A stretch of DNA of 64,000 nucleotides. Origin: Candidatus Methylacidiphilum fumarolicum. GTDB taxonomy: Bacteria > Verrucomicrobiota > Verrucomicrobiia > Methylacidiphilales > Methylacidiphilaceae. The position numbers and the translations under genes are program-made. Within the stretch, counting starts at the first letter, position 1; each line of letters starts with the position of its first letter. Below are positions 6,694 through 54,813 of the stretch, piece by piece. The notes below the pieces were generated by a model, which was not told the DNA's origin, did no database searches, and saw only the letters and a program-made list of their open reading frames with translations. Location: contig NZ_OX458932.1 in assembly GCF_949774925.1 (NCBI RefSeq), forward strand, positions 682,001 to 746,000, in the 5' to 3' direction.

Positions 6694-7157
6694 GTCAACT
6701 ACCCTTCTCTGAAAGGAGGGGCTTGTAGGTAGCTATAAGCTGAGTTGCCTAGGGTAAGTTACGGAGCTGTGGCAATGCAAAGAAGTAACTACGTGAGCGA
6801 TAGGCAAGACCAGATCTACTCCAGGATGCTTACTCAGTCCTGGATCCTGGAAGAAGGGGATCAGGCTGGCGAAAGGCAAAGCGCCGAAGGTTCCCTTCTC
6901 CTGTGCAGGCGGCTAGCCGGTCGTGTGCTTTTCCGAGGGGATCGAGTTGGGAACGCCAACTCAGCTCCGTTACTGCCGAAGGACGGATGGAATGTAAGCC
7001 TTGGGAAGGGGAGGCTGAGAGAAACCACTTTTCTATCCCCTTATGAATATTTGTGGACCAAGATAGCATTGGAGAAAAGAGATGGGGCAACAGGGGTGGC
7101 TTACGATGCCGCGCTATCCCTTCTCGACCTGAAGGACGGGGTTTCCCCCACAATTGG
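6694..7157 (+). ncRNA. HEARO-type element, copy 1 (IscB-like omega RNA without an IscB)
   Basis: First of three related 462-464 bp elements in the window. It begins GTCAAC, then a 7-bp stem (CCCTTCT paired with AGGAGGG, one G-U pair), then CTTGTAG-GTAG-CTATAAG. The conserved middle contains GGCAATGCAAAGAAGTAACT, and the 3' end is GACGGGGTTTCCCC followed shortly by ATGA at 7158. From family knowledge, HEARO RNAs are mobile IscB guide RNAs that usually lack the protein gene and insert directly before ATGA or GTGA; all three copies fit this. Here the ATGA opens only a 16-codon frame. The guide would be the 16 or so bases ending at 6693. An open frame through the element is not judged to be a gene. 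Confidence 0.7.
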
Positions 7158-27569: not shown

Positions 27570-28457
27570 TTATCGATTTGCTTTTTTCCTACAAATCATT
27601 CGTAATGATTTGAAAAGGAGTGAGGGGACATCCTTATAGCCTAACTTTGGCCTGAAAGCTAATGTGTTGTAGTTTATTTTTTTAATCTTATCAAGAATGG
27701 TTTTCCCACCATACCAGGTTAATGCAATTTCTAGCTTTAAGGGCCATTCAAGGGTATCAATCAAAACTTTTCCTTTATCAAAAAGCTCCTCAGTACGCTT
27801 GACTTGAAAAGAGAGCAAGTCTCTGAAATTGGAACTAAAATGCCTAGCGAATAGTTCGGCTTCGCTAACCTTGTATTGTTCCATTTCGTCTTTAGGCAAA
27901 TAGATTCTGTTTTTTTTAAGGTCTATAGAGATGTCCTGCCAAAAATTGGCGAGCTGAAGAGCCGTACATATAAAATCTGAACTAAGCAGTTGCAAATCGG
28001 TCGTTTGACGGTGAAGATAAAGAACGAGTCTTCCAATTGGATTGGCACTTTTTTTGCAATAATCCAATACTTCTTCAAAATTTTTATATCGATCTTTTAG
28101 GACATCTTGCTTGAAGGCATCTAGAAGATCTGTAAAAAGGTTTAGGGGCAGTTGAAATTTTTCAATGGTGTCGTGGAGAGCTAAGAAAACAGGATTTTTA
28201 GCACAAAGCTTGGGATCAAGTAGATAGGCACGCCATGTATCTAAGCTATCCAGCCTTTTTTTTCTTTTTTGCTCATCCTCCCTTTCTTTCTCATTTAATG
28301 AGTATCCTTCATCGGCATAATCATCAGCGATTCGTGAAAAGGCATAGATAGCATGGACATGAGGGGCAAGATTTTTAGCAACAAGAAGACCGACAGGAAA
28401 GTTTTCGTAGTGAGAAGCAATATGTTTACAATAAGAATAGGCTTCGGTAAGATTCAT
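27570..28457 (-). CDS. hpnC: Squalene-synthase-type prenyltransferase HpnC
   Basis: A 295-residue trans-isoprenyl enzyme of the hopanoid/squalene branch. SHYENFPVG near the N-terminus is the hallmark of HpnC. First aspartate motif DDYADE (residues 45-50); second in QDISIDLKKNRIYLPKDE (about 168-185). HpnC acts with HpnD and HpnE to make squalene by way of presqualene diphosphate and hydroxysqualene. The start is the ATG at 28457, directly at the 3' junction of a HEARO element; the frame runs on into that element, but those residues are element sequence. There is no clear ribosome site upstream of the ATG (element end AAATTGG), so expression may have been altered by the insertion. Confidence 0.9.
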   Translation of the reverse strand: MNLTEAYSYCKHIASHYENFPVGLLVAKNLAPHVHAIYAFSRIADDYADEGYSLNEKEREDEQKRKKRLDSLDTWRAYLLDPKLCAKNPVFLALHDTIEKFQLPLNLFTDLLDAFKQDVLKDRYKNFEEVLDYCKKSANPIGRLVLYLHRQTTDLQLLSSDFICTALQLANFWQDISIDLKKNRIYLPKDEMEQYKVSEAELFARHFSSNFRDLLSFQVKRTEELFDKGKVLIDTLEWPLKLEIALTWYGGKTILDKIKKINYNTLAFRPKLGYKDVPSLLFKSLRMICRKKANR

Positions 28458-28921
28458 CCAATTTCGCGGGAAACCCCGACGTTCAGGCCGGAGAGGGATA
28501 GCGCGGCGGCATGAGCCGCCCCTGTTCCCGCAACTCCTTTCTCCAATGCTATCTTGGTCCACGACTATCCATAAGCGTATAGAGAGACGGGGTGAACTGC
28601 TTCCCATTCCCAGGGCTTCCCCTCCATCCGGCTTTCGCCGGTGACGGAGTCGGGTTGGCGTTCTCGACTCGCTCCCCTCGGGAATGTGCGCGACCGGCTA
28701 TCTGCGCGCGCAGGAAAAGAGAACCGTTGGCGCTTTGCCTTTCGCCAGCATGATCCCCTCCTTCCAGAGCCCCAGACTGAGGAAGCATCCCGGAGTGGGT
28801 CTGGTCTTGCCTATCGTTCACGTAGTTACTTCTTTGCATTGCCACGGCCCCGTAACGTTCCTTGGTCAACCCGACTTGTAGTTACCTACAAGCTCCTCCC
28901 ATTTAAGGATGGATTGTTGAC
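28458..28921 (-). ncRNA. HEARO-type element, copy 2, flush against the hpnC start codon
   Basis: On the minus strand it begins GTCAAC (28921 downward) and has a 5' stem with a mismatch. It then has a perfect hairpin CTTGTAG-GTAA-CTACAAG with a GNRA loop. The conserved GGCAATGCAAAGAAGTAACT follows and the end is GTCGGGGTTTCCCGC, then AAATTGG. The next bases are ATGA, whose ATG starts hpnC. Same length (464 bp) as copy 1. The guide would be the complement of 28922-28937. No protein gene is carried. Confidence 0.72.
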
Positions 28922-29074
28922 GAAAATTTTCTTTATTACATTGCTTTTTAATAAAAAAATAACTCAAAAACAATCGTTTTTTGAAGAAACATCGATACTT
29001 TCAGCTAATAAATAGGTATTTTTATATTTGATTAACAATCAAAAATCCTAAAATAGCCTTTTAGGCATCTACAT

Positions 29075-31475: not shown

Positions 31476-31899
31476 TCATTCCGGTGTTCTCTGCCCCTCG
31501 ACATACTGTCTGATAAAGGACAGCGGAGCGCCCCCACTGCTCCCGGTGAAATAACCTGGGGGACCAGAGAGGTCCACCTAAGAGCTTTCGGCGAATTTGC
31601 CTAAAGTATTTCTTTCGAATCAGGCGGCTGGCCCCCCCTTTTTAGACTGTTCATCACCATGTCTATAGCCACTTTGGGTGGATAGATCACCAAAAGGAGC
31701 CCGTGTGGTTATCTTCTCCATTAACTTCCAACCATTCGGATCCAAAATCTTTATAGACAGAGTCTATAAACTGGCACAGGTCTTTCAAAATCTCTTTGGG
31801 GATCCCTCCGTGCTGATATTTAGTAACAAAGACCAAATGGACATGAAGGTTATATACGCAAGTGTCACCACCTGTAGGGCTTTCGTTTGACTTTGTCAT
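31476..31899 (-). pseudogene. tnpA: IS200/IS605 Y1 transposase TnpA, frameshifted
   Basis: About 141 codons, near full length. It starts with a normal TnpA N-terminus (VYNLHVHLVFVTKYQ) to NGEDNH at residue 66. A one-base deletion follows, then VIYPPKVAIDMVMNSLK, another shift to RLIRKKYFRQIRRKLLGGPL, and a further shift to YFTGSSGGAPLSFIRQYVEG and the stop. The HUH metal motif, normally D-H-V-H, is broken (DNHTG), so activity is lost even apart from the frameshifts. Confidence 0.8.
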
Positions 31900-48796: not shown

Positions 48797-49258
48797 CGAA
48801 TTTTGCGGGAAACCCCTGCGTTCAGGCCAGGGAGGGATAGCGCGGCGGCGTGAGCCGCCCCTGTTCCCGCATCTCCTTTCTCCAATGCTATCTTGGTTCA
48901 CGAATATCCATAAGGGAATAGAGAGGCGGGTTCACTCTGCCCCCCTTCCCAGGGTGTACGTCCCAACCAGCTTTTGCCAGTGACGGAGCCTGGCTGGCGT
49001 TCCTGACTCGCTTCCCTTGGGAAAGAGCGCAACCGGCTACCCGCATGCATAGGAGAAGGGGACCTTCGGCGCTTTGCCTTTCTCCTGCATGACCCCCTCC
49101 TTCCAGGGGCCGGGACTGAAGAAGTACCCCGGAATGGATCTTGTATAGCTTATCATTTACGTAGTTACTTCTTTGCATCGATCTGCTCCGTAATTATCCT
49201 GATCAACCCGACTTGTAATTACCTACAAGCCCCTCCCATTAAGGGAGGGATAGTTGAC
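48797..49258 (-). ncRNA. HEARO-type element, copy 3, flush against the alcohol dehydrogenase start
   Basis: On the minus strand: GTCAAC (49258 downward), perfect 7-bp stem CCCTCCC-TTAAT-GGGAGGG, hairpin CTTGTAG-GTAA-TTACAAG with one G-U pair, conserved ATGCAAAGAAGTAACTACGT, and a 3' end GCAGGGGTTTCCCGC, then AAATTCG and ATGA. The ATG of that ATGA begins the alcohol dehydrogenase. Length 462 bp. The guide would be the complement of 49259-49274. The base changes between copies keep the two 5' stems paired (only copy 2 has one mismatch in the first stem), which supports a selected RNA fold. Confidence 0.72.
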
Positions 49259-49447: not shown

Positions 49448-49850
49448 CTACGCCATGTATCGGCGGATGACTTCCGCTGATACGGTCCCAGCCGTTCTCA
49501 CATAAAGGCTTGCGTCCATAGATGTTCCCGGCGATATCCAATATTCTTGAGCTTCAGGAACCGTTTTCGATAGCCCCGCGGGATATATAACCCTTGAGCA
49601 GTCTTACGATCGTTGAAAGAGCCCAACGAGGCATGGCCGATACGAAGCAATGCACATGGTCGACGCCCATTTCCAAAGCTGGCAGCCGAAAGGCGAATTG
49701 TCGACAGCATTCGGCGAGGAGAGCCTTACAGACCGCGTTCACCTCGCCGGATAGGATTCAGCGACAGTATTTTGGTTTCCATAGGAAGGGATAGGCGAGC
49801 TAATAATGTGTCCATCTCGTTTTTTCGGTTTACAATGGATCAGTTATAAC
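49448..49850 (-). pseudogene. tnpA: IS200/IS605 TnpA with stop and frameshift
   Basis: Readable as YPFLWKPKYCR, then an in-frame TGA, then ILSGEVNAVCKALLAECCRQ, the intact HUH motif in DHVHCFVSAMPRW, and LKGYISR. A frameshift and a stop follow before VRTAGTVSAEVIRRYMA and TAG at 49448. The order and motifs are those of the IS200-type Y1 transposase; the start is not identifiable. Confidence 0.75.
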
Positions 49851-54281: not shown

Positions 54282-54813
54282 CTGATCTTCCGCGTGCGCC
54301 GTGGAAAGGGTGCATCGCCCAGTGGGGTGGCAGTGAACCCCATCCGGCAACTATTGCTCCAGCCGGAAGCGCTTGGGGCGGCTACTGGCGGCAACGCTGG
54401 TGGTCGAAGCCCCTGGGAAAAGGCTCGGAAAGCGGGTCAGCGAGCAAGCAGGCCGTAATGCGAATGAACGCTGAACAAAGCCTCGAAAAGGGCAATGCGG
54501 ACGCCGAGCTGGTGCCAAATAGGCGAAGGCCGATGTTTCCCCGGGAAGGAGAGCAATGGAGGCACTGGGGAAAGCCGCCGGGGTATTGGGCGACGGCATG
54601 CTTGCAAAGGGAGATGCATCAACACGGGAGACCCATCCGGTTGGGATCCTGGCGGAGCCAGGCGGACCGACCGCTGCCCTGCGAGGGACGGAGCGGAATC
54701 AGGTGGGAATCGGATAGGTCCATAGTACCTGGGAAGTCGGAGAAAGGCCGATGGAGGGAAGGGACCTTAGTTCAAGGGAAACGCCCGAAAGAGCGAGAGC
54801 AGGGAGATTGGCA

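Follow-up and report, generated by a model that had tools for sequence, protein, structure and literature searches.

Does the structured RNA that ends directly before the hpnC start codon of Candidatus Methylacidiphilum fumarolicum belong to the gene as a leader, or to a mobile element that landed there, and why at this very position? The locus lies in a stretch of 64,000 nucleotides (contig NZ_OX458932.1, positions 682,001–746,000), which we call the window and to which coordinates refer unless another locus is named. The features around hpnC are as follows.

27570–28457, minus strand: hpnC, intact, encoding the squalene synthase HpnC of 295 amino acids (TIGR03464, 290.6 bits).
28454–28457, minus strand: target motif ATGA, that is, the hpnC start codon plus A; it follows the right end in 9/9 copies of the genome and in nearly all family copies checked.
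28458–28921, minus strand: the whole iscB-less HEARO/IscB-type element, 464 bp, with borders taken from the empty sites in two relatives (G010 and G011) and from the other copies of the genome.
28458–28573, minus strand: right end of the element, 116 bp with a terminal hairpin, found in copies with and without iscB, both here and in related genomes.
28458–28607, minus strand: element-borne in-frame extension of the hpnC reading frame, 50 codons from an ATG at 28607, giving a 345-amino acid frame (27570–28607).
28666–28921, minus strand: HEARO RNA (RF02033; IscB ω-RNA scaffold), covariance model score 65.0 bits, E 9.4e-13, model positions 1–211.
28922–28937, minus strand: former hpnC leader AATAAAGAAAATTTTC, the 16 nt outside the left end and the presumed guide position of the ω-RNA, a role suggested by known IscB biology.

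The element begins with GTCAAC at 28921 and, read on the minus strand, terminates with ...CGGGGTTTCCCGCGAAATTGG (last bases AAATTGG) at 28458. The opening of hpnC, ATGAATC, follows from 28457 downwards with zero bases between the right end and the ATG. The initial annotation had placed a HEARO insertion exactly at this start codon and its far end at 28921; element borders and empty sites bear out both, and the old leader now lies beyond 28922. The first 256 bases of the G+C-rich element make up a full-length match to the HEARO model. This match stays below the gathering score of RF02033 (65.0 versus 83 bits), so that a default Rfam scan misses the copy, whereas two sister copies pass with 94.9 and 88.4 bits; judged by its sequence, the RNA at hpnC is a diverged HEARO akin to these. 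With the left part of L096, an element with intact iscB, the hpnC element shares 83% identity over 284 bp, and through L096 it is homologous to elements that carry the RNA ahead of an iscB frame. No iscB is present within 28458–28921, and the 464 bp consist of left end and right end only; in iscB-bearing relatives, the right end lies behind the 3' end of iscB or shares bases with it. Folding the complete element gave z −1.6, which was not informative. Being without iscB and below the Rfam gathering score, the copy at hpnC may be inert.

The same region in G010 and in Methylacidiphilum sp. Yel (G011, locus L011) reads ...AATAAAGAAATTTTTC|ATGAATCTTACC, joined directly. The 464 bp are missing at exactly the position of the element, with flanks that are otherwise nearly identical, a gap that is not due to chance. 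The join predicted by the initial annotation (...GAAATTTTTC to ATGAATC) was found in both relatives apart from one flank base, by which the 16-nt flank AATAAAGAAAATTTTC differs from either empty site before ATGA follows. This agreement between the guide flank and the empty site is a consequence of insertion and no proof of activity. The insertion is clean and lacks a target duplication. At the other seven testable copies of the genome, relatives are likewise without the element at each site and have ATGA at the junction. Because two close relatives keep the empty site, the element is an insertion, and one that occurred in this lineage only. That it is instead a fixed cis-regulatory leader RNA of hpnC, as a structured, conserved RNA directly ahead of a start codon might suggest, is rejected, since the clean empty sites in G010 and G011 rule it out, the other family genomes have no such sequence ahead of hpnC, and unrelated genes are preceded by the same element.

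Two filled sites depart slightly from their empty counterparts. At L099 (2472–2934), 24 bp that G010 carries between successive ATGA/ATG-like points (ATGAATCC... and ATGAAAATT...) are absent, which is what a shift of the right junction from one ATGA to the next would leave. At the copy at 6.7 kb of the window, the bases after the ATG differ slightly from the empty site.

The genome (2,476,671 bp) contains nine loci of the same element, which score 47–95 bits with the HEARO covariance model. Among the nine, iscB is intact in one and truncated in another. The intact iscB (NF040563, 397.7 bits) belongs to the same element family as the hpnC copy and, as the single one of the genome, could act in trans. 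The window holds two further copies.

48797–49258, minus strand: second copy (462 bp), directly ahead of the start codon of a zinc alcohol dehydrogenase gene (from 48796 downwards); its site is empty in G010.
6694–7157, plus strand: third copy, 464 bp, abutting the ATGA of a 15-codon reading frame; its site is empty in G010 and G011.

The 15-codon frame behind the third copy lies about 100 nt upstream of a 622-codon open reading frame. At L096 (1090–2667), no stop interrupts the iscB frame upstream through the HEARO RNA as far as an ATG at 1090, so that a 525-codon frame takes in the RNA region. None of the 48 Y1 transposase matches in the genome is linked to the hpnC element, and HEARO nucleases are described as rarely being near IS200/IS605 transposases (PMC9755519). 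The window also contains degenerate Y1 transposase remnants of the IS200/IS605 type with several stops (31549–31860 and 49578–49808, both minus strand), the second of them near another HEARO copy, as well as a group II intron match (D1-D4-4, 54325–54463, plus strand, 80.4 bits).

An insertion directly upstream of ATGA or GTGA, as reportedly given for HEARO integration in its 2009 description, is found at hpnC, as ATGA is at each of the nine copies of the genome. Beyond the motif itself, seven of the nine copies abut the start codon of an open reading frame of at least 77 codons. The same holds for 4/5 placeable right ends in G009 and 12/12 in G005; in Methylacidiphilum sp. Yel, only 2/9 copies have their ATGA at a start codon, which is no enrichment. 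These counts cover elements with a placeable right end. For comparison, we counted non-genic ATGA motifs over 464, 200, and 128 kb of the three enriched genomes, using a simple gene caller; gene starts in these Methylacidiphilaceae are therefore those of open reading frames, not of curated annotation. Start codons make up 14–16% of the ATGA not inside genes, and the excess at the elements corresponds to P values of 3e-5 (this genome), 3e-3 (G009), and 3e-10 (G005). If every gene began with ATGA, the values would be 8e-4, 0.016, and 2e-5, respectively. Start codons are thus favored far above random intergenic ATGA in three of four family genomes, and the position at hpnC is typical for the element, not special. 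The proposal that the insertion couples hopanoid synthesis to the mobile RNA finds no support here. The position is common to most mapped copies and not peculiar to hpnC.

The genes behind the elements include dapA, ksgA, cobA, a miaB-like gene, and pgl. All tested ones (four from G005, one from G009) match curated families, namely uroporphyrinogen-III methyltransferase, MiaB/RimO-like (at the subfamily cutoff only), RsmA/KsgA, DapA, and 6-phosphogluconolactonase. One G005 element abuts ATGG instead of ATGA, and three G009 copies have two successive ATG codons at the junction. For three genes, the same start codon is occupied by different element subfamilies in different species: a gene beginning MKKQLRSAVV (this genome and Yel, empty in G010), the zinc alcohol dehydrogenase gene (this genome and G009), and a gene beginning MN(A/P)NH(L/M)I... 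(Yel and G005). The MKKQLRSAVV pair could also be one old insertion in which the element was later replaced. Yel further contains a separate family of small repeats (G011 loci L121–L127 and L129) with a HEARO-like right end, GGCGGGGACTCCCGCGCAAATTTG, that stop before TTGA and are not at start codons. Among 387 genomes of the phylum searched for HEARO with stricter filters, only one genome beyond the family had matches, and these were weak.

The same arrangement is seen for several iscB elements on plasmids from other phyla, all with independent annotation. The next gene has its annotated start right at the element in Pseudomonas veronii, Cupriavidus basilensis, Cupriavidus sp. USMAA2-4, Pseudomonas paraeruginosa, Polaromonas CJ2, Polaromonas JS666, and Deinococcus KNUC1210; the Deinococcus element (L252) sits between parA and parB and abuts the parB start codon. 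The plasmid elements of Allochromatium, Methylobacter, Cupriavidus necator, and Pontibacillus, the last with GTGA instead of ATGA behind it, do not abut a start, and several further ones are ambiguous. For the P. veronii insertion, 14 related Pseudomonas plasmids have the empty site, and the filled site contains the 4-base ATGA one extra time; a search for the empty counterpart of the Polaromonas CJ2 element found none. The right-end motif, picked without regard to start codons, also matched 18 viral contigs, most with ATGA directly behind. Of 12 distinct viral matches with ATGA, eight open a frame of at least 58 codons, as compared with 33% of all ATGA there (P 0.018).

What does the insertion mean for hpnC itself? 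The gene product is identified as HpnC by NCBIfam TIGR03464 (290.6 bits against a cutoff of 250.45). Its dN/dS is 0.05 versus G010 and 0.07 versus G011, and the changes special to this lineage comprise 26 synonymous and five nonsynonymous ones. These values indicate that hpnC is still under purifying selection; part of these changes (26:5) may be older than the insertion.

The initial annotation had assumed that the native ribosome site was displaced by the element. The old leader has indeed moved beyond 28922, but it contains no Shine–Dalgarno sequence, the best pairing of its last 20 bases with the 16S tail being −1.0 kcal/mol; because of this, no recognizable ribosome site was displaced. 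A displaced native Shine–Dalgarno sequence is accordingly discarded as a candidate. The stronger pairing of the new leader comes solely from a GGGG 17–20 bases upstream, too distant for normal initiation, and the right end of this copy offers no correctly spaced Shine–Dalgarno sequence. In the empty site, TAATAA sits 11 nt before the old ATG, and the native transcript might have almost no leader. The element pushed away the upstream region, perhaps together with a promoter that contains this TAATAA. The scan for terminators found none within the element, and the scan for promoters gave a single promoter-like match on the opposite strand, within chance. Read-through from the old hpnC promoter into the gene is plausible because the element is without a terminator. 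TAATAA, as part of a possible −10 box, overlaps the guide position at 28922–28937; were the RNA made from the old hpnC promoter, the guide would be cut short.

Ribosomes probably begin hpnC at its own ATG, on a long transcript that includes the HEARO RNA. A less likely alternative is an N-terminally extended HpnC from the ATG at 28607. The extension encodes peptides such as LWIVVDQDSIGER and is absent in the relatives, whose HpnC begins MNLTEAY. With the frame open for 50 codons into the element, the concern raised by the initial annotation that homology-based annotation might over-extend HpnC describes a possible error.

Some right ends carry sequences that could spare the host gene. Two iscB copies of this genome, the full and the truncated one, end GAGGAG(G)TTT(T) before the ATG, an element-carried Shine–Dalgarno sequence; the L097-type right end reads GAGGAGGTTT, and a GGAG is similarly placed ahead of the ATG in the Deinococcus element. 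The iscB of L096 lacks a stop of its own; the TGA within the target ATGA supplies the stop codon, and the frame overlaps the host start. TG and the first A of the target together form the iscB stop in Polaromonas CJ2 and JS666, C. basilensis, and several G005 copies. About a third of the iscB lineages examined have such an overlap of stop and start. It looks like translational coupling, but its frequency is what frame and chance could give, and we would call it an arrangement and not a device. Because no more than about a third of the lineages have the iscB join, we do not claim coupling by design. We also considered that a coding frame might be conserved across the right end, where the peptide ALSLPGLNAGVSRAN recurs, and rejected this, as the DNA itself is conserved there. 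Both an intact iscB frame and a Shine–Dalgarno sequence are lacking from the copy at hpnC.

Taken together, the hpnC element is an iscB-less, presumably non-autonomous derivative of the IscB/HEARO family with ATGA as target, and we consider it probable that the excess at start codons arises from the retention of transcribed copies. The element, presumably moved by a Y1 transposase, went in directly before the ATGA that opens hpnC. Sense copies between promoter and gene would be transcribed, yielding ω-RNA with a guide from the upstream flank. This RNA could protect the copy from loss, and intragenic insertions would be purged. The host gene would survive, probably because transcription passes through the terminator-less element, and in some subfamilies the right end may in addition provide a ribosome site or a stop/start overlap. 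A further-reaching proposal holds that start codons are an adapted safe harbor, in which the leader becomes the guide, host transcription makes the ω-RNA, and the right end returns the ribosome by means of a Shine–Dalgarno sequence or a stop/start overlap; this is possible but on balance rather doubtful.

The main alternative to retention is a direct preference of the single-strand transposase for ATGA exposed near promoters and start regions, for example in open complexes or R-loops. The occupation of one start codon by different subfamilies in different species (MKKQLRSAVV, zinc alcohol dehydrogenase, and MN(A/P)NH(L/M)I) is what such targeting predicts, as would be a nearly leaderless hpnC with its TAATAA close to the ATG. 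However, leaders with Shine–Dalgarno sequences at several targets (L096, L097, and L101) imply that the ATGA is not always at a transcription start, and we regard this preference as unlikely. Still less probable is random insertion into any ATGA, with the start-codon excess coming only from the loss of intragenic insertions. ATGA is the target throughout, and the Yel copies lie mostly off start codons. Nevertheless, the 14–16% expectation already leaves out intragenic ATGA and is far exceeded in the other three genomes, and a copy in the gap between leader and start codon should do more harm than one at other non-coding sites. Selection against intragenic insertion alone does not account for the counts.

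The hpnC element has parallels among known systems. It resembles HEARO RNA (RF02033) and IscB OMEGA systems in its model-matching RNA, the ATGA directly 3', and the guide position in the 5' flank, but differs by the lack of iscB and the score below the gathering threshold. As in non-autonomous IS200/IS605-type elements (MITE- or PATE-like), left and right ends are kept, the coding part is gone, and no target is duplicated, whereas the copy at hpnC carries a full guide-RNA scaffold. IStrons, in which an IS605-type element is fused to a group I intron, are likewise mobile guide-RNA elements that spare the host gene; the hpnC element has no sign of splicing, and its place before the start codon would spare the protein instead.

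HEARO/IscB is a known family, and the landing at start codons is the larger result; no description of it was found in the literature searched, a search outside which the founding HEARO, ISC, and OMEGA papers lay. Cas9 is regarded as descended from IscB, and little is known about the life of iscB elements in genomes. If the start-codon habit is true, it would explain how these elements spread without killing their hosts and would give the ATGA motif a natural reason. A gene's leader would then hold the guide, and how genes behind the elements are expressed could be tested directly. For annotation, the habit is a warning that part of a mobile element can be mistaken for the N-terminus of proteins such as HpnC.
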